A stretch of DNA of 64,000 nt from assembly GCA_019044685.2 (NCBI GenBank), contig JAGTXX020000009.1:992001-1056000 (forward strand), given 5' to 3'. Position 1 is the stretch's first letter, and every line of letters begins with the position of its first letter. The notes under the pieces are model-generated. The model saw nothing but the letters and a program-made list of their open reading frames with translations, was not told the DNA's origin and did no database searches. The stretch is from Nannochloris sp. 'desiccata'. Its lineage: Eukaryota > Chlorophyta > Trebouxiophyceae > Chlorellales > Chlorellaceae. Made by a program: the position numbers and the translations under genes. Positions 16,338 to 30,873 of this stretch are shown in pieces.

Positions 16338-18374
16338 ATGACTGCGTTGTTGAATTTGAAAGGCACAGGCGTAATATTGTTTGCATTGGTATCCTTGTTT
16401 GTCATTAATGTTCAAGGACAAGAGCCGGGGTGGTATGTGGCGATGCCAGATGAAAACGTGCCATATTTTAACAAGACAAAAATCGTCGTCTGCACAACAC
16501 CGTGGACACCCGCTGTGTTTTGTGATCCAGATACAGATCCAGTAACATGGACTGGTTTCGAAATCGAAGTCTTTAGAACCACTACTACTAGAATGGGCCT
16601 GGCGCCTGGAATGCTGGGTAAGTTGAACTTAAAAGATGAAAAATATCAAGAAAGGGTCGGCGGGTCGGCACTTTATAATTCTTGGAGTGAAGTTTTGCTT
16701 CTTATTCGTACATACAATTGATTTGAAGAATTCCAAGTATGCCTTCTTGCAGATTGGAGATGTTATATGGATAAACAGAAGTTTTTTGATGACCTCTACG
16801 ATTCAAAATGCGATATTGCCCCTGCGGGCATGGCGCCGTTTCCGGACCGTATGAAGAAAGGATTGCGTTTCTCTGTACCTTCTATTCAAGCTGGGTTCTC
16901 CATCATGGTGACAAAAGACGTAAGAGACCCTGGGATGTGGTACTTCTTTAGTGCTATGACATGGGAAGTCTGGATGCTCATGATCGTTACAGGTATCGCC
17001 GTCGGTATTATTGTGTGGCTCTTTGAAGTAGGAATGCGCGCTTTAAACACAGATACGCACAATATGAGTAATGTTATGTGGGATACTCTCGGTAGACCTG
17101 TTCAAATGCGTGATTATCGTCTTGCATCGTTCCCCGCAAATTTAACAGCCATCTTATGGTCCTTCCTCGTATATATTTTAATGCTGATTTACGGCGCAAA
17201 CTTGACTGCGAATTTGACCATCAGCCAGTTCAAAAACGACATTCGAGGACTAAAAGACCTTCCAGGAAAAGCTGTGGCTAGTTTTGTGGGCCATCAAGAA
17301 GAGTTGAAAAAATACAACATCGCCTCGATGGGCATGCCTTGGGATGACGAAGAAGACGAGAAAGCTATGATTGCTACACTCAAATCGGGTCTAGTTAGGG
17401 CCCTCGTCTTCGATAGCAGTCTTTTGAAAATTTACGATGCTACAGATTGCGATACCATGCTTGTTGGCGATGAGTTTGACCTTCATAATCAATGTGTAGC
17501 CTTCCCTCCAAATACATGGCAAAACTACCCTGGTTTTGTTGATGCATTCGATGTTGCTATGCTGAGTGTTGTACAAGGTTCAGGCGGCGTGGAAGGACTC
17601 GTTGAAAGGTTTATCAGCGTACCACCTGCGGCATGTAAAAATAGTGATTTGGCATCGGGCTATGCTTCCGTCACAGTTAAAGAAGTAGCTGGCTTATGGG
17701 TGATTTTATCAATTTCGATTCTGATTAGTGCGCTTATAGTCATCTTGTACCGACTGTGGGAATCGAAAATTGGCCCCTGGGCAGCGAGAAAAGGCTACTA
17801 TAACCCTGAACACTCGGAGAAAATCAAAACTTCGTATGCAACTTTCAAGCGATCTGGATTTTCTTCTGAGATGCGGAATCCATACGAAGATGACGATGAG
17901 GATGACGATGCTGATAACGCTGTCAAGCATAGGTATACAGGGGCATCAAAGGGGTATGTTGATGGCTCGACTGATATTTTCCCCAATGGCGTTCATAAAT
18001 CAAAAGCTGGGGCTTTCTCCAAAAGAAGAATGAAATATGGTTCAAAGAAACTAGTGGTCGATAATACACTTCCTGCTGCCTCTGATACTCATCGTAACCC
18101 TAACCAAGAAAATGGTCCAGTGGAAGTAGGCGTCAATGGACGTAAAAGTTCATTGTCTAGCGGAGAGCAATCGACGAAGCAAGTATGGTTTGGATCTTCA
18201 GATGGAACTACTCCTATAACTACCGCTGCTTCTATTCCGGATGTGATTGATAATCGTGTTCTGCTCCCTAGTGATAGTGCTAGAATTGAGGCTTCACGTA
18301 TCTATGCTGATAGAATGGCCACGTTTAAACTTTCAAACGCAGATTACGATATCGATGGTGACAACCAAGTTTAA
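16338..18374 (+). CDS. Ionotropic glutamate-receptor-like channel lacking the amino-terminal domain
   Basis: Exons 16338..16617 and 16753..18374 join through a split Asp codon to give 633 residues. The chosen ATG opens a signal peptide (TGVILFALVSLFVINVQGQ). Ligand-binding lobe S1 covers about residues 45-150: KIVVCTTPW, TGFEIEVF, and the CDIAPAGMAPFPDR segment that parallels the family's TP.R motif. M1 is at about 164-185 (WEVWMLMIVTGIAVGIIVWL). A pore loop and M3 follow (AILWSFLVYILMLIYGANLT, where IYGANLTANLT parallels SYTANLAAF). S2 runs to about 400 and M4 is near 404-430 (LWVILSISILISALIVILYR). The cytosolic tail is acidic then basic. No LIVBP-like N-terminal domain exists, so this resembles prokaryotic GluR0-type size plus an M4. 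TGTAA lies at 18608. Ligand and ion selectivity are unknown. Confidence 0.85.
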
Positions 18375-19549: not shown

Positions 19550-22500
19550 ATGAGCTGCAGTGAACAGGAAGAGTATCAATCTGCGGATGAAGGTGAAGAA
19601 TCCTCTAATCAAATGGATATTGAGCTTAGAGCCAGTGGCGTTGCCCCCACCCCCGCCTCCAAGCAAAGTGCAAGTGGAGACTGCTACAATTCTGTCAGTG
19701 GTAGTGGTGAAGCTGGTATTCTAAACCCAATTATTTGTAGGTCGTGGATTGATGATACTCGCCCTCTTTCTGCCAACCAGCAACAGATGTGGTCTGTTCT
19801 ACCCACTGAACCCCAGTCGTCCGCGTACAATATGGTATTTGCTCTACACTTGACTGGAGCACTAGATAATAATGCATTGCGTACGGCAGTTGCTGCCATC
19901 ATGGAACGCCATACTATTCTTAGGTAAAAGCTGTTTATTCTCTAAAAGCTCTTGTTTATGATGCATCTAAACCTTTTTGCACTTTAAAAAAAAAAACTTT
20001 TTTTTAATTTCTTCATTTTCGTTAATCCTGTTTCTTCTCGTAGGATGCGTTTTTTTGAGAGTGATGAGGGCATTGTGCTCGGTAACATTTTAGATACCTC
20101 TTCGATGCCTTCTCCTCTGCACGTTTACCCAGAGTCTATTGCAATTTCAGAAGTTACTGCCGTCCTTGAAAAAGAGAAGAAGCGTGTGCTGGATCTTTCA
20201 AAGGGAACTGTGCTTGCTGCTTGCCTGCATGCAGTGGATGATGGCAGCTCTCTGCTTGTAATAACTCTGCATCATGCTGCTGCAGATTTCTGGTCAATTG
20301 GAGTCTTCAATAGGGAACTCTCTCAATTATACAATGCTGCAATGCAAGGCGGTACTTTTGATCTCATTGCTTTGCCCATCCAATATGGCGATTATGCAGC
20401 TTGGCAACAAGACTATTTGCAAAGTGAAGGTGCAGTGAAAGAGAAGCAGTTCTGGAAATCGACTCTTGCTGGTGTTCCAGCAATGCTGCAGCTCCCAACT
20501 GACAGACCTCGCCCTGAGAGCCCAACGGGCGAAGGACGCAAGTTTTCTGGACGATTAAATGCAGAGCTTGTGCGCCAAGCTGCTCAATTTGCTTCACAAA
20601 ATCATATTAATATGCAAAGTGTTCTTCTTGCAGCTGTACAAGTGCTTCTCATGCGGTATAGTGGCCAAGATGATCTCGTTATCGGTGTACCTACAGCTGG
20701 CCGGGACCATCTTGAGACTCGTGGTTTGATTGGTTACTTTGTCAACACTATGCCTGTACGCTGTGCTGCATCTGAAGACACTACTTTTATAAAACTGGCT
20801 AGGAACGCGTCTCAGGCGACTATTGCAGCACTCGCCCATGCCCACCTCCCTCTTCAGCAAATTGTTGAGCTGACCCATGCAGCTCGCATTCCTGGTGCCA
20901 ACCCTTTGATCCAGGTCATGTGCCAATACATGCCCAAGAATGACATTTCCCAGCCTAAATTTGCCGGATTAAAGATGACTGAGATGCGCACAGGTAGTCT
21001 TACACAGGCTAAATTCGATCTTGCCTTCCATTTTAGCGATGGAGGGGAATTCGCGATTGAATACATGGCCGAGTTGTTTGATGGTGCGACAATAGAAAGA
21101 TTTGCCGAGAGTCTCGCGTGCCTGCTGACTGATGCATTGAACAATCCTGTTCAGTCTGTATTTCGCTTGTCTATGCTTGGTAAAGAAGATTTGAAGTTGT
21201 TGCAGCGCTTTAGTAAGGGTGCAGCACGTCCTGAGTTCTTAGCAGAGCCATTAGTGCATCAGACGTTTGAAGTCATTGTCGCTTCAAGCCCTAGTAAGAC
21301 ATGCCTGGTTTATGGAGAGAACGATTTAAGCTGTCTAGAGGTTAGTTTCGGTATATTATCTATCTAAATTGTTAGTGTTGGTATGGTTCTTAATCACTCA
21401 CTCAACAACGATCTTTGACTACTCTAATTTTTGTGCAGGTCAACCACCGTGCCAATCGGCTCGCTCACTGGCTCATTGAGAATGGTGTCAAGCAGGAGAC
21501 CATCGTTGGTGTCATGGTAGAGAGATCATTTGATTTGATAATATCTATCTTGGCTATCTTAAAGTCTGGAGGTGGCTACCTACCTCTTGATCCAAGCTAC
21601 CCTCCTGAGCGTTTGGCAGTTTATGCAGAGGACGCCAAGGCTGCCATCGTCTTGACGCAATCTCACCTCCTTACAAGCGCAGCTGAGCTTGGTGGTGATG
21701 GCGCTCTAATTAAAGCAATTGATACCCTGGATCTTGATTCTTACCCTGTTATTAATCCAGGTATTCAGATTGATTCAGAAAGCACGTCTCTAATTCTCTT
21801 CACTTCCGGTTCTACTGGCAGACCCAAGGGTGTGCAACACGCCCACCGCCACTTGCGTGATCTTCTCTTAAGTATGAGAGATTACTTTAATATTGGACCT
21901 GACGACGTTATTATGTTGACCAATACTATTTGTTTTGATGTACATGCCTTGCAAATCTTTGCGCCACTCATGTTTGGAGCGAAGTTAGTTTTGGTTGAGC
22001 CCGAGGGCCACGTCAATGGCGAGTTGGTAACTTCACTTTGGTGGCGCCACAAAGTCACTGGTATGATCTTCACTGTGCCATTCCTTGCCAAAGAATACCT
22101 TAATAACCTGCATGAACCCTACCCTCACATGCGTATGTGGGGTATGGGTGGCGATGCTGTTCCTTTGGACATCGTTCGCAAAATGCAAGAGGTGTTCCCG
22201 AACATCGACGGTCCAGTGAATAGTTATGGTCCTACTGAAGGAAATGTGGTAACGCAGTTCCGTTTCTCTAAAAATTCTAGTTCTCCTTTGATTGGTAGAC
22301 CGGATGATAATGTGCATTGCTACATTGTTGATGCTAATATGGCATTGGTGCCCGTCGGTGTGCCTGGTGAGCTGCTGTTGAGTGGTCCTCGTCTCGCAAA
22401 GGGTAAGATTATAAATTCGGCATTTGCTATGTTAAATTATGAAAGTATCACATTACTGTTGTTTCTCTTCTAATAAGATCATCTCTATTGCAGGATACAT

Positions 22501-25500
22501 TGGTCGCCCTGATTTGACCGATGAGAAGTTTGTGCCAAACCCTTGCTACGACATGATGGCCTCCTCTCTACCGACAAAATTACAGGATCATTACCGTATC
22601 GTGTATCGTACAGGAGATTTGGTGCGCTGGAGAACAGATGGAAATCTCGAGTTCCTTGGTAAGTAAAATATTATTGAATAAATCCAAATAGCAGTTTACA
22701 ACTGTATTGTTGGAATGTTTTTACTCATTTTTTTCCTTCCTTCGCGCTGCAGGTCGCATCGATAGGCAGACCAAAGTCAATGGTGTCCGTATTGAGCTTG
22801 GTGAGATAGAATACGCTTTGCGAGGGGCAGCAGGTGTAGAATCTGCTGTTGCTGCAGCTGTAACAGATAGTGAAGGAAAAAAACGGCTGGTGGGATACGT
22901 TACCCCTGCAGGCATTCAACCCACTGATGTGCTTGCCAATTGCCAGGCTACCTTGCTCGCTGCTATGGTGCCCAATGTTATTGTTACGCTTGATAGCTTC
23001 CCTCTGCTTCCTAATGGAAAGGTTGATGTGAGGTCATTGCCTTCTCCTGATTTTACAGTCAAAGAATATGTGGCTGACGATGGTGTACATGGAATTGATG
23101 GCGATGACGATGAGGTCTCTGTGGCTGTGAAATTGGCATGGAGAGGAGTATTTGGTGGATCTATAAGCTTCGCACCGAGTCTCGATTTCTTTTCTCAAGG
23201 TGGCACCTCGCTGGATGTTATGAGAGCAAACGCAGCTATTGCAGATTCTCTTGGGCTAGCAAATTCACCGGCAACGACTCTAGTCTACAAAACACGGACC
23301 TTAGAAGCTACTATTGAGGGTGTTAGGGAGCTTTACCAGTCAAATAAGTGTAAAGCGGGTGCGGGCTCAGCTGCTGGCGAGAGAAAAGAATGGCAGAGCC
23401 CAAGTTTAACTGCTGAAGATTGGCCCGACGCAACACGGCCTTTAAGCGCAGGGCAAGAGCAAATGTGGACATTGGCTACACTAATTGAACCTGAATTTAC
23501 AAGTGCGTACGTCGTAGGTGAAGCCTTCCGTATTGTGGGCTCTCTAGATATTTCAAAACTGCAGCAAGCCCTTACTCTCGTAGCTAGTAGGCACGAAGTG
23601 CTGCGTACGAGATACGCCATGGTGGGTAAAAATAGAGGCCTTTCTGGTATTGTTACGATGGCTGATGTCTATAAAGTCAATTTACGCAGAGTTTATTTAG
23701 AAAAAGATGAACATCGACAACTGCAAGAAGCGCTTCGATCAGAATTTTCGATGCCGTGGGATCTTGAAGCTGGCCCTCTCATGCGTGCAGCGCTGATTCA
23801 GACCCCTAATTCAATTGCTGCAGTTCTCTGTATTTCCTTACACCATGCTGTCAGTGATGATTGGTCTTTGACGGTCTTTTGCCGTGAGCTTTCTGTTTTC
23901 TATAACTTTCTCTCTCAAGAAACGCAGCCAGAAGGGGCACAAGTGCCCCTAGAACCTCTCTCTGTGCAGTATGCTGACTTTGCAGCTTGGCAAAAGAAGA
24001 AATCTTTATCAGTAAAGCATAATCAGCTCGAATATTGGCGTGGTGTTTTAAAAGGGGCTCCTCCCGTTCTACAACTGCCAACAGACCATCCTCGGCCGAT
24101 AGTGCCTTCGTTAAAAGGAAGCACGCTTTCTAATCTTTCTTTGCCACCAGGTTTACTACAAAAGCTCCGTAATCTTGCTTCAGACCTGAAAATTTCTCTT
24201 GCTGCGTTGACGCTCGCTGTGTACCACACTTTGCTTGCTAAAATTTGTGACACAAATGATGTGGTGGTTGGAGTTCCAGTCGCGCAACGAGGTCTCTCTG
24301 CTGTACAACCGCTTGTAGGCTATTTCATTACTCCAGTCGCTGTCCGCGCATCACTTGATCCTAAATCTCCGTTCAAAGATGTAGCAAACGCTGTGCAGAG
24401 TGGCTTAGCAGGTGCTATGGATAATTCTGATATCTCTTTTCAAGATATTGTACAAGGTCTTGGGCTGGGAAGTGTAAAAAGATCGCATACACCTGTGTTC
24501 CAAGTAAGTTAAAAACGATATTGCATATGTTAAAAGAGTGTTTTCTATTTCCCTTTGAATTTCCATGAGAAATTACTACTTTGGTCGATGCCTTAGTAAA
24601 ACATTTGAGAATATTCTCTCACCGGCGATTCTGCTTTTTTTTTTTTTGTCTCTGTGCAGGTGATGTTTAACTTTACTGACGATCCTGAACTGGCTCTCAA
24701 CCTCTCGGACTCTTTGGAAGCTACAAGGCTGCCCCTTCCAGACTTGGGTACTTCTCAATTCGAGCTGACAATGTTGCTTGTAGCTGGAGAAGGCTCTGGC
24801 TCAATTCAAGTGGAATACTCTACTTCAATTTTCAATGCTTCTACCGTCTCTGGGATCGTAGATAACTACATTTCACTGCTTTCCTCCGTCGTTGCATCAC
24901 CTGAAACACCTCTTCGTCAGCTAGAAATGATCTCTGAATCTCAGCGTGCAGAGCTCGCTGCCTTTAGTACAGGACCTGATAGAAAAGACTTTATTTATGG
25001 TCCTTTAGTACATGAACAGTTTGCAACTAGAGCGGCAGCTGCTCCTAAAGCTCCTTGTTTGCTTTTTAAGGGCGAAGTACGTACCTACGGAGACGTGATT
25101 GCGGCAGTAGATCAGCTAGCAGCAAGGTTGATTAAAGCTGGTGTGGTGCCTTTTTCTGTTGTAGGTGTTATGATGCCACGGTCACCAGCGCTGGTCATTG
25201 CCATGCTGGCAACGATGAAGGCTGGAGGAGTGTATCTTCCCCTTGATACGAGTTTGACACCTGGTCGTCTTGCAGCTTATGTAAAGGAAGGTGCTCCAGC
25301 TGTGTTGTTGGTAGCTGAGACCACAAACGTTGAGGCAGTGATGGCAGCGTTGCCACCTCAACTACAGAAGCCTTCAGTCGTGAACGTGGAGGAATATAAT
25401 GATACTTCTATCAAAGCTTTTTTCACTGCGAACCAAGTGCAGCTGAGTGGTGCTGACGTGGCTGCTTTAGTGTTTGCTGCTGGGCCCGCTGGGCGCCCTT

Positions 25501-28500
25501 ATGGTGTGGAAATAACGCATGCTGGGCTTCGAGACCTTGTAGGGTGGACATACAACGAGTCAATTGGTACGTCAATAGAAGATGTCTACGCTTTGACAAT
25601 GGCTGTGTCTTCTTCCACTAATATGGCTACTGTGTTGGCTGCTTTAGCTGCCGGTGCGGCGGTGGCGATACTTCCGCCGGGAGAAGAAACAAATGCTGAT
25701 GCAGTTGCTTCCTTCTGTGTATCTAGTAAAGTGACTATTTTGGAGCAATCTCCAATGGCGCTCGAAATCTACGTGCCACGTCTGAAAGCTGCCTCTTCAA
25801 AACTCGACATAAGGGCAATCATTTTACGAGGTGAGCTTCCAAAAACTACACTAATAGCAGCCCTTAAGGACGCTCTGCCCTTTGCAAATGAGAATATTTT
25901 AAGTATGTACGGAATGAATGAGTTTTCTACCTCTGCAATTACATCTAATTATGGGTATATGCATACGAAAATAGTACTTGGTCTACCAGACCCAAACGTG
26001 CAAGTGTACGTCGTTCACCCCGAAGACGTCTCTCGGCTTCAACCCGTTGGAATGCGAGGTGAGCTACTATTGACTGGAGTGCGTCTGGCACGAGGATATT
26101 GGAAAAATCATGAAATGACGAGTGAGCGTTTCCTTCCAAACCCTTTCCTCAAGCAAAACGCGAGCAAAACAGAGCATGAGCTTTTTGGTCGAGTATATCG
26201 CACTGGAGATCTCGTTTCTTGGGATCGCGAAGGGCAGCTGTGTTACCATGGCCTTGTAAATCCGAATGCAAATAAGATTGGAGTCCGTTTTGGAGAAGGG
26301 CAGGATGGCAAGAGCCTTTCTGCTGAAGATAAGGCAGAGGTAGCAAGATTTGCTCTTGGTGAGGAGAGACGAAATTTCTTTACCCACCCTCTCGTGCACG
26401 AAGCTTTTGAAGCAATAGCTACCTCTTCTCCCACCCAAAAATGTCTCTACTATGAAGGGAAGTGGCTGACGTACAGAGATGTAGCGCTACGATCAGCAGC
26501 TCTGGCTCTGAAACTAAATGCTCTCGGGGTCGGTCCAGGGGTGCCGGTAGGCATCATGCTGGATCGCTCTTTTGATTTGATGATCTCTATACTGGCCGCT
26601 TTTAGAGCAGGTGGTTGCTACGTTCCTTGTGATCCTTCTTTTCCTGATGGGCGTTTGCATAACTACCTTGAAGATAGCAAAGCAACAGTGGTTTTGACTC
26701 ACACAAAAGATACCGAGAGAGCACGGGGTATAGTGAATAGTGAAACAGTACAGGTGGTCAACCTAGCTGATTATGACTTAGAAAAGACAAATGATAAATC
26801 TTTAGCTGCATTAGATGGTTTAAAACGTGCTGGCCCTGAAGACCCTGCCTATATTATTTTCACCTCTGGCTCCACTGGTAATCCAAAAGGCGTCGTTATT
26901 CCCCATCGCAGTTTACGCGATCACGCGCTTGGCCTTGTAGATTACTACAATATAACGTCTAATGACACGTGTCTACTGTCTAGTGTTATTAATTTTGACG
27001 CGCACATTATGCAAAGTGTCCCTCCTTTGGTTGTTGGCGCTGGTCTTGTTATCGCTCGTCCTGATGGTCATATTGACCCTGAGTATATGAGCAATCTGAT
27101 AGCTTCTGGGAAGGTGACACACGCCCTCACCACACCATCTCTTGCTTTGGTCCAATTTAGAGGGCATGAAGTAGCAACATGCACGTCCCTGCGTTACATG
27201 TTAATTGGGGGTGAGGCAATGCAGCGGGAAGTAATTAATTTGTTCGCAGCAAAGGTAAGACAGAAGCTGAGGTTTTAGTTTTAGTTTTAAGGAAATAGCG
27301 TCACTTAATTTCGCGATAAAATGAAGGTTTCTCACTGATGTATTGACGTTCTGTTTCTTTATTTATTCTTTGCAGCTGCCATCGTGCCGGGTCTTTAATG
27401 TCTATGGCCCCACCGAGGCTGGAATTAGTGCAGTGGAGTGTCACTGCCCTCCTACAGTGGACCTTATCACCCTTGGCCGACCTGTATACAACATGCACAC
27501 CTACGTGGTGGACTCTGAGCTTCGCCCTGTTGCTCTGGGTGTGCCTGGTGAGCTGTTGTTGAGCGGGCCCCGCCTTGCTTTGCACTACGCTGGCCAGCCT
27601 GAGCTGACTGCGGATAAGTTTATTCCTAACCCTTGCATTGATCTGGTATCTGCTCACATCGACCCTTCTCTCGCATTATACTACCGCAAAGCCTACCGCA
27701 CTGGTGACTTAGTTCGGTGGTGCAGCGATGGTACTTTGGAGTACCTTGGTCGCATTGATCGTCAAGTGAAAGTGATGGGTGTGCGCATTGAACTGGGTGA
27801 AGTAGAAAATTCTTTATCAGATGCACCAGGGATTACTTCAGCTGCTGTCACTGCGATTACACTTGCTGGCAGCAAGACCCTCGTCGGCTTTGTGACCCCA
27901 GACACTGCTGACACAGAAGCTGCCCTGGTCCATTGCCGCAACATGGTCCTGCCTTCAGCAATCCCTTCCAAACTTATCGCATTAAAATCCTTCCCGTTAC
28001 TTCCTTCTGGAAAAGCTGACGTCAAAGCTCTTGAACAAATAGCTCTTGATGCAAATTTAAATGCCAACGGTGATGGTGATGATGACTGGTACGTCCCACC
28101 TTCTACTGATCTGGAAGTCGCTATTGCCCGTGTATGGCATGAAGTTCTTCTTATTCCTGAAGAGGAAATTTCTGTGCAAGCAGATTTCTTTTCTGTTGGT
28201 GGAAATTCTCTTAAAGCCGGAATCCTCACTTCACACCTACGCTCGACCCTCAACATGCCTCGTTTACAAGCAACAACGGTCTACACCGGCAAAAGCGTGC
28301 GTGGTATGGCAGCTTTAATTGAAAAATCGCATGAAGGAGACATTCTTAGGCGTGAAAACGATTTAAAAGGCTCAAATTCCATTCTACAACGTTTGACCAT
28401 TAAAGCGCCATCAAAAGCTACTACAATTGTTCTGCACCCTCATGCAGATGATGTTAGACTAGAGCTTCTATCTGTCGAAAATCCAACACGATTGCCGTAT

Positions 28501-30873
28501 TGGGCTTATCTTATTCTCCAGTGGCTTATGCTGGCGTTGCTTTCCGCTGTCCAGCCAATTCTGTGGGGTTCTTTGCTGGCCATGTTGTTTTCCTCTAAAC
28601 GCATTGTTGGTTGGGGTGGTGTGGTTGGCCTCTGGCCAGTGATGCGTATTCTTTCTTTAGTAATAAATGCGATCCTCCTTCTCGCGCTGAAATGGATCTT
28701 GGTTGGCAGATTAAATCCAGGTGTCTACCCTCTCCATGGCTGGATGTATGCACGATGGGTCACTTTGAGAGCTCTTCAATCTCAAATGTCCACCATGCTG
28801 CTCCCAATTCTCAAGCGCACAACACTGCTGCCGTGGCTATTACGTGGGCTGGGAGCAAAGATTGAAAGCCCTTCCACGACTTTAATTGAATCATTAGATA
28901 TTTCTGATTTTGATTTGATTACTTTGGGGAAAGGATCTTGTATCTACCATGCTGCGGTTGTTACTGGCGCGTTCGTAGCGCCTGCAGGTTACTTGCGTCG
29001 AGACCCTGTCTTAGTGCTTTCTCCTGTTGTTATTGGCAAAGGATGCCATATTGGATGCAATTCGGTTGTCAGTGCTGGTACCACAATTCCAGATTCTCAT
29101 AATTTGAAGCCACATGCCTCTCCAGCGCATCCTGGAGATGCTCCTGTGGCGGGGCCGTTGTCCGACCACCCACACTTTACACCGGAAGAACGACTCCCCA
29201 CGATTGTGAACCTCGCAGGTGGGCTTCTTGTCTTCATTTGGGAAGCGCTCGCACAAGAACCTGCCATAGCATTGTCTCTTTACCTCATCGCTGTGATCGT
29301 AGGCCGTGTGCCCCTACTTGAAGGGTTATTTGCGACGTACCAAGCTTGGCAATTGGTTGCTTTTGGTACATTATTTGCCATATTCTATCGTTTAATTAGC
29401 CCTGTTACGTGTATGGCTGCTCAGGCCTTGGCAGTCTTTGTTTGGAAGTGGTGTTTTGTTGGCCGCTTGACTCCCGGCCGTAACCTTGCTAAATCTAAAC
29501 TCAGTTTGTTCAACTATTCTGTCCTGCGCCGGCTCGTTGAACACCAGCGCTGGGGACAGGTCCAAGAAGTCTTTGCCGGCACTCCTGCTATGGCTGCTAT
29601 TTACCGTAGCTTGGGTGCCAAAATTGGCCGGCAAGTTTTCCTTGGACTTAGCATAGTTGATTTTGATGCAGTGACTATCCACGATAATGCCTGCTCAGGC
29701 TCGTCTTCGCGTATTTTAGCGGCAGATGATGACGGTATTATAGAACAAGTCACCATTCGAAGAGAGGCTACTATTGGCAACACGTCCACTTTATATCCAG
29801 GATGTGATATAGGTGAACGTGCAGTAATAGGGAACGACACACCTATTTGCAAAGACCGCACTGTTCCTTTAGATACCCGCGTTATGGGGAGCATTCAATA
29901 TAGTGTTGGTCGACGTAGAACTCACAATGCAGATTTAGGTTCCGTCGCAGAAAAAGGCGAAGTTGATGGTGAAATAGAGCTGGGTTTACCAACTATTGTG
30001 AAAAATTCAGCCCGTGGAGTTGATGCATTCGATCTTCCCTTGTGGCATAGTGCTCTGGTTGTCGTCGTATTGCTCATAGTGGAACCAATAGCACCCATTG
30101 TCGGATGGATTCCTGTTGCTGCTATCATTACAATGCTCCAAAGTGGTTTTATTTACCTTATAATAGTAGCCTACCCTATTCTTATCACCGTTGGATGGGT
30201 GCTTGCTGTTATAACGTTGCGGTTGATGTTGGAGATTTCAGGAATACGTCGATTATGGGCAGCTGGGTCAGCCTCTTGTTTTAATCTTCGTGCTCTAGTC
30301 ATCCATTCATGGTTTAGTTTGAATCCTTCGGGGTTAAATGCTTTAAATGGAACTCCTTTTATGGTTTGGATTTTTAGAGCGCTTGGGTTTTCAGTGGGCT
30401 CTGGTGCAGTTATTCTAGGGATGATGCCCCTTGAATCCGCTCTTGTCTCTGTCGGAAAAGACTCTGTGCTCGAAGCCCAATCTATGCTGGATGGGCATTA
30501 CTTAGAGTTTGCACGCTTTATTTATAATCCCTTGAAAGTTGGGAAAGCGTGCTGGGTGCAAGAAGGAGCACGCGTGATGCCAGCTACGGAGCTCAAGGAT
30601 GGTTCACGAGTGCTCCCATCGTCTTTAGTTCTCCCTGGTGATACTTTAGAGAAGGATATGATCTGGGGAGGTTTGCCAGCGGAACCGCTGGGGCCAAGGC
30701 CTAACGCAAATGCAAATAATCCTCAAAGAAAATTATTACGCTCTGGTCGTATCGGAGACTCTGCTAACAGGAACTTTGGGCGGAAGTCGTCTAGTAAAAG
30801 ATCAAAGGGGATGTCTGGATTTTTGGGGGCTCTTGCGAGCTCGAATCAAAAAAACTCGGCTGATATGCTCTGA
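19550..30873 (+). CDS. Nonribosomal peptide synthetase with Pls/PosA-type membrane C-terminus
   Basis: Seven exons (19550..19923, 20044..21340, 21439..22402, 22494..22658, 22753..24503, 24660..27254, 27376..30873) join in frame to 3547 residues; every junction restores a conserved motif. Order: condensation C1 (about 68-500, HHAAADFWS); adenylation A1 (about 525-1030, TSGSTGRPKG, YGPTE, YRTGDL, GRIDRQTKVNG); carrier T1 (Ser near 1083 in GGTSL); C2 (about 1159-1590, HHAVSDDWS); degenerate A2 (about 1633-2060, AAGPAGRPYG in place of the phosphate-binding motif); A3 (about 2095-2610, TSGSTGNPKG, YGPTE); T2 (GGNSL near 2659). Three membrane-pair plus hexapeptide beta-helix units follow (about 2757-3490), as in epsilon-poly-lysine synthetase. 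No thioesterase is present. A1 and A3 keep the Asp that binds the alpha-amino group (FDVHA, FDAHI), so amino-acid substrates are likely; their identity cannot be read safely. Codon use matches neighbouring genes, arguing against recent transfer. Confidence 0.93.

Follow-up and report, generated by a model that had tools for sequence, protein, structure and literature searches.

A nonribosomal peptide synthetase (NRPS) gene of the green alga Nannochloris sp. 'desiccata' ends in a module of membrane helices and beta-helices homologous, by sequence comparison, to the one that finishes the homopolymer synthetases Pls and PosA. What is new is that this module is present at all four NRPS loci found in the genome, at three of them with a thioester reductase (R) behind it. 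The gene lies at positions 19550-30873 (plus strand) of the window, the whole 64,000-nucleotide stretch of DNA analysed here (contig C9, 992001-1056000; assembly of 21.55 Mb in 18 contigs), from a host placed in the Chlorellaceae, Trebouxiophyceae and Chlorophyta by the NCBI taxonomy for Nannochloris. With a probability of roughly 0.5, we read its product as a membrane-bound two-module NRPS whose Pls-type module releases the peptide by acyl transfer onto an acceptor. An earlier note on this DNA had described the gene and proposed that its product could release or polymerise a peptide or isopeptide; the observation is confirmed and the interpretation partly supported.

The synthetase and its terminal module

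The seven exons (Table 1) join into 3547 codons without an internal stop, and the six introns (120, 98, 91, 94, 156 and 121 nt, in order) are all GT-AG; the joins are predicted from the sequence. A frame of such length with domains in such an order is not credible as a chance product. Pfam and phmmer searches give the order C1-A1-T1-C2-A*-A2-T2 and then the terminal module, that is two condensation (C), three adenylation (A) and two carrier (T) domains. The window contains no match to a thioesterase (PF00975) or a reductase (TIGR01746). Half of A2, T2 and the complete terminal module are read in one frame within exon 7, and the link between T2 and the module is therefore independent of splicing. 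Transcription of the terminal part on its own was considered and set aside as improbable, since it would require a promoter inside this exon. The earlier account of an intron-rich nuclear gene of a green alga, with the module fused to upstream condensation modules and no release domain of the usual kinds, thus holds for the window.

The profile TIGR02353, 'Pls/PosA family NRPS', matches the exon 7 frame in three stretches (E 6.2e-49), but its score of 167 bits is under the curated cut-off of 423.1; the profile check that the note had proposed thus returns the family without reaching its threshold. The relatives of the module include proteins named Pls/PosA family by NCBI, and not just unrelated acyltransferases. 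On these comparisons the homology to the Pls/PosA module extends across the whole length.

Modelled on its own with AlphaFold2 (pLDDT 85.1, pTM 0.86), the module is predicted to have six long helices arranged as three pairs, together with three beta-helices, the threefold repeat that the earlier note had seen in the letters. A plain hydropathy scan agrees roughly with the helices: eight stretches pass in the module, but seven also pass in the presumably soluble part. The Pfam Hexapep match scores 38.6 bits against a cut-off of 27, and a left-handed beta-helix fold is supported by the predicted models. A sequence search found no solved structure of a Pls module. The top 50 Foldseek matches to the whole last exon are all NRPSs or related adenylating enzymes, and a search of a viral library gave nothing useful. 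The available text of PMC10522769 likewise reports no structural information on the Pls/PosA module as of 2023.

A histidine in the third beta-helix domain is kept in 28 of 30 rows of the alignment and in at least 90% in two further alignments. Among sequences of the window type, which have no reductase, it is found in all eight rows that cover the site, those of the window gene and seven relatives. The basic tail that follows the module ends in GFLGALAS and a few more residues, and can be made out by eye in the relatives P0002-P0005 and P0008.

Table 1. Exons of the NRPS gene and parts of its terminal module (CT), in window positions.
Feature	Position	Strand	Basis
Exon 1: start, N-terminal extension, beginning of C1	19550..19923	+	splice join, domain search
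Exon 2: remaining C1 (HHAAADF), beginning of A1	20044..21340	+	splice join, Pfam, phmmer, motif scan
Exon 3: A1 core	21439..22402	+	splice join, Pfam
Exon 4: A1	22494..22658	+	splice join, phmmer
Exon 5: A1 end, T1 (GGTSL, about 23103-23342), C2 first part (HHAVSDD)	22753..24503	+	splice join, Pfam, phmmer, motif scan
Exon 6: C2 end, degenerate A* (about 25074-26498), A2 first half	24660..27254	+	splice join, Pfam, phmmer
Exon 7: A2 second half, T2 (GGNSL, about 28150-28404), Pls-type terminal module, tail	27376..30873	+	splice join, Pfam, phmmer
Pls/PosA-type terminal module (CT), 736 aa	28489..30696	+	profile match, homologue searches, AlphaFold2
Membrane helix pair 1 (CT 4-72)	28498..28704	+	hydropathy and model, predicted
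Beta-helix domain 1 (about CT 121-230, limits by eye)	28849..29178	+	predicted
Membrane helix pair 2 (CT 238-324)	29200..29460	+	hydropathy and model, predicted
Beta-helix domain 2 (about CT 378-475, limits by eye), Pfam Hexapep match	29620..29913	+	Pfam, model
Membrane helix pair 3 (CT 518-583)	30040..30237	+	hydropathy and model, predicted
Beta-helix domain 3 (about CT 634-736)	30388..30696	+	model
Conserved His codon (CT 670, protein residue 3423), in GHYLE	30496..30498	+	alignments
Basic C-terminal tail (KLLRSGRI...GFLGALAS)	30697..30870	+	sequence

Upstream modules, substrates and release

The features of a modular NRPS are present, namely C domains with HHxxxD (retained by both C1 and C2 in a motif scan), A domains and T domains with the carrier serine, with the exception of A*. 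This domain has neither the A_C part nor a T domain of its own (Pfam), and its core motif is ruined (AAGPAGRPYG in place of TSGSTG-PKG); to judge from these defects it is a dead adenylation domain, a relic beside A2. Its nearest relative among six compared A domains is that of P0003 (36.7%), while A2 shares 59.7% identity with the A domain that comes last in the minus-strand NRPS on contig C3. Because the two similarities differ, A2 looks inserted beside an older, decayed A domain. The C1-A1 stretch at 20044-22402 has a copy inside the same C3 locus, an internal module (C3:459206-461564) with 92.4% identity over 753 aa, with dN 0.039 and dS 0.151 by NG86 and dN 0.042 and dS 0.125 by YN00, and the intron adjoining the stretch is recognisable in both copies. 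Modules have thus been copied between chromosomes, and the C1-A1 pair has diverged under constraint.

Could the gene be a decaying recombinant, with module 1 copied in from another NRPS, A2 inserted by a defunct A* and an assembly line that has stopped working? The degenerate A*, the separate affinities of A* and A2 and the copied module are what such a history would leave behind. However, the 3547 open codons, the six clean introns, the intact motifs in C, T, A2 and the terminal module, a dN/dS between module 1 and its copy of about 0.26 or 0.34, depending on the method, and the existence of a 91% relative, P0002, make this very improbable.

The pocket residues of the intact A domains, aligned to the bacterial protein P0026 of the named Pls/PosA family, read FDVHALQ in A1 and FDAHIMQ in A2 against FDASCEE in P0026. 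At position 239, in a numbering that we take to equate it with PosA Glu221, A1 has Leu, A2 has Met and P0026 has Glu. Because neither A1 nor A2 carries an acidic pocket residue, both would be expected to take ordinary, probably hydrophobic residues, and a single peptidyl transfer would be expected to follow. Pls and PosA activate a diamino acid with their A domain and depend on the terminal module for polymerisation; Glu221 of PosA is essential, the E221A variant having no detectable activity (PMC10522769, in the text available). The earlier suggestion of a cationic isopeptide or polymer, made as in these enzymes with the upstream modules priming or capping the chain, draws on the whole-length homology and on a C terminus with the same A-T-module order, but it is weakened by the pocket, since neither intact A domain has the acidic residue that PosA needs and the Pls/PosA-family P0026 does, and also by the C domains fused upstream; we consider it improbable.

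The Pls/PosA terminal module joins a T-bound residue to a free amine acceptor. In the reading that we favour, release by acyl transfer, C1-A1-T1 and C2-(A*)-A2-T2 would couple two residues, with A* as a relic. The Pls-type module would replace a thioesterase, accepting the peptidyl thioester from T2 and, at the membrane face, handing its acyl chain to an amine (or hydroxyl) acceptor; His3423 would probably serve as the base for the transfer. The product would be an amide- or ester-capped peptide and not a homopolymer. The catalytic role of the module, the acceptor used and the restriction to one transfer per chain are all steps that we infer.

Sister synthetases in the same genome

Condensation domains (PF00668) occur at four places in the genome, the window, C3 403-421 kb (plus strand), C3 436-479 kb (minus strand) and C5 354-362 kb (plus strand), where a motif scan counts 2, 6, 13 and 3 C domains, respectively, 24 in total. 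All four NRPS loci have a TIGR02353 match at the 3' end (best E 5.1e-37), strongly hydrophobic stretches in the module (hydropathy scan) and no thioesterase match. The TIGR02353 search of the genome was lax (E 0.01, a level at which all 14 control genomes also match), and four weak matches elsewhere (24-38 bits; C6:593173, C15:377130, C15:881686 and C3:266925) are presumably ordinary hexapeptide proteins.

For the three sisters the 3' ends were spliced by hand. Each has a thioester reductase in frame behind the module, with TGATGFVG and YxxxK motifs and a TIGR01746 score above the cut-off at all three, at one of them when it is counted together with its neighbours in the frame. The order in three of four loci is therefore T-[Pls module]-R, and the view of the module as a terminal arrangement is right for the window gene but not for its sisters. 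One NCBI record bears this out: P0048, the hypothetical protein Ndes2526B_g02216 of Nannochloris sp. 'desiccata', corresponds to the C5 sister, agrees with its hand splice at 99.1% over 1476 aa and has an identical C terminus; the annotated splicing omits part of an A domain upstream of this agreement. Since this single protein matches both profiles, TIGR02353 with 337 bits (under the cut-off already given) and TIGR01746 with 238 bits (above its cut-off of 213.35), the order T-[Pls module]-R is confirmed. Relatives P0003 and P0004 have no R, as in the window gene, and both carry the window-type C-terminal tail.

Does the module release the peptide, or does it only hold the synthetase in the membrane? 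It is possible that the module is a mere anchor or scaffold and that release occurs by hydrolysis, by a trans-acting enzyme or through the C domain of a partner synthetase. With a reductase behind it in three of four synthetases, release need not be the module's job, and its hydrophobic stretches are kept in all four. The histidine of domain 3 is replaced in two of the three reductase-bearing sisters, by Tyr in the C3 plus-strand and by Val in the C3 minus-strand locus, and kept in the C5 sister; the histidine of domain 1 is present in all three (GHSIERG or AHSIERG) and in bacterial P0026 (SGHWLDG). On the other side, the window gene offers no alternative release domain and keeps the near-invariant residues, as do, for the domain-3 histidine, the seven window-type relatives that cover the site. 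The anchor is on balance doubtful, though less so than polymerisation. The retention of the histidine where no reductase follows, and its loss in two of three sequences where one does, is a suggestive correlation among few sequences.

The C3 minus-strand locus extends over about 50 kb (C3:430-482 kb) and is probably one gene, which starts with an acyl-CoA-ligase-like AMP-binding domain and a T domain, has 13 C domains and ends in T-[Pls module]-R. It converges to within about 2 kb with the plus-strand locus, upstream of which lies an ABC transporter (ABC_membrane, ABC_tran), and the region C3:398-482 kb is a candidate biosynthetic cluster. Across the four loci, HHAVGDA stands in place of HHxxxDG in 14 of the 24 C domains, and the first C domain of both the C3 plus-strand and the C5 locus reads NHCVMDG. 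Two phosphopantetheinyl-transferase-like genes (C6:2144744 and C5:27570) could activate the T domains.

Distribution and comparison with known systems

Among the best 80 of 548 bacterial relatives, which from their titles are presumably Alphaproteobacteria (two are titled only Proteobacteria), the module is present in every locus. Seven of the open reading frames are cut by the locus end; the 73 complete ones, 1344-1516 aa from stop to stop, all have a single A-T architecture. Searches of the 80 loci at E 1e-10, with the window C1 and C2 and one sister R as queries, returned neither a C nor an R domain. A genome-by-genome count covers one phylum, that of locus L105 (Magnetospirillum), which we take to be Pseudomonadota. 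With two candidates scored per listed genome, 27 of 398 genomes have a TIGR02353 match at 1e-60. There are 28 such matches: 27 are full-length, in open frames of 1303-1480 aa with a single A-T, and the remaining one is in a frame of 495 aa, so that none is multimodular. A chimeric module query retrieved 4999 proteins at 1e-8 among 8000 scored (about 1043-3318 aa), the best 120 of which have no condensation domain among their precomputed Pfam domains. Longer proteins (about 2044-6505 aa) gave no match at 1e-10 among 1999 candidates selected by exact five-letter words, a set in which intron-bearing genes are incomplete. From the bacterial loci, the 398-genome survey and the long-protein search, fusion of the module to upstream modules is therefore, as far as these searches extend, missing or rare beyond this algal group.

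Separate origins of the window-type and reductase-type modules were considered. In a first tree the three reductase-type rows group with 17 rows that are bacterial or presumed to be so (97/95). When P0015, P0017 and P0010 are removed, a branch (94/92, not starred) sets all 11 algal rows apart from the others. These trees neither support nor reject a single algal origin. P0015, from EukProt, is a protein with the order inverted, its Pls-type module standing ahead of a fatty-acyl-AMP-ligase-like domain.

How does the window gene compare with known systems? It resembles Pls and PosA in having the homologous module, with its three helix pairs, three beta-helix domains and domain-3 His, directly behind A-T. 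In contrast, the bacterial enzymes seen have a single A-T, about 1300-1500 aa and no C domains, and the PosA pocket is acidic, as suits a diamino acid, whereas the window-gene pocket is not. NRPSs with a terminal thioester reductase (TIGR01746, such as MxcG) are matched by the three sisters in their R domain, but the sisters have the Pls-type module between T and R, and the window gene lacks R. The hexapeptide acyltransferases (type B CAT, VatD, serine acetyltransferase) are soluble enzymes that depend on coenzyme A. They share the left-handed beta-helix fold, to judge from the Hexapep match and the predicted models; the window module differs in having three domains per chain, a predicted membrane embedding and, presumably, a feed from carrier proteins.

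Homologues of PosA are reported from bacteria (cyanobacteria among them), fungi, archaea, Metazoa, Alveolata and Amoebozoa; the main text of that study does not mention the word algae (PMC10522769). Among fungi, Epichloe has a known epsilon-poly-lysine synthetase (PMC7179176, available text). In 2015 algal NRPSs were reported as rare (seven of 32 species; 11 C domains in six proteins; Symbiodinium excluded; PMC4661987), and a 2024 survey of 212 algal genomes names 585 candidates, NRPS or NRPS-like (PMC10794256), so that modular algal NRPSs were already known. These share with the window gene C-A-T modules in nuclear algal genes, but the Pls-type module does not figure in the available text of either survey (hexapeptide does not occur in PMC4661987, nor hexapep or lysine in PMC10794256). 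In a literature search that covered few subscription journals, none of the papers listed dealt with a Pls-type module in an NRPS that is modular or algal.

The module is otherwise found on single-module bacterial and fungal homopolymer synthetases of the polylysine type. By sequence, a family of modular eukaryotic NRPSs appears to have recruited it, with an unusual second form before a reductase; its place on modular synthetases, even ahead of R, implies that it accepts chains beyond cationic monomers and suggests an unexplored way to finish a modular peptide. We tentatively propose a eukaryotic NRPS class in which a membrane-tied assembly line is finished by a Pls-type module, T-[Pls module]-R being its second form; the module may then be a general peptidyl-carrier acyltransferase, with poly-lysine synthesis only its iterative special case. 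Natural variants that differ in the domain-3 His and in the reductase make it testable what is transferred, and to what, and they are at hand in this named green alga, where four NRPS loci were found, one having 13 C domains.

Contamination as the source of the window gene was rejected, given its introns and nearby open reading frames for an RNA 3'-phosphate cyclase, a protein kinase, a ligand-gated ion channel and an AAA ATPase. The ion channel gene (Lig_chan; window 16722-18374) lies directly upstream of the NRPS gene.

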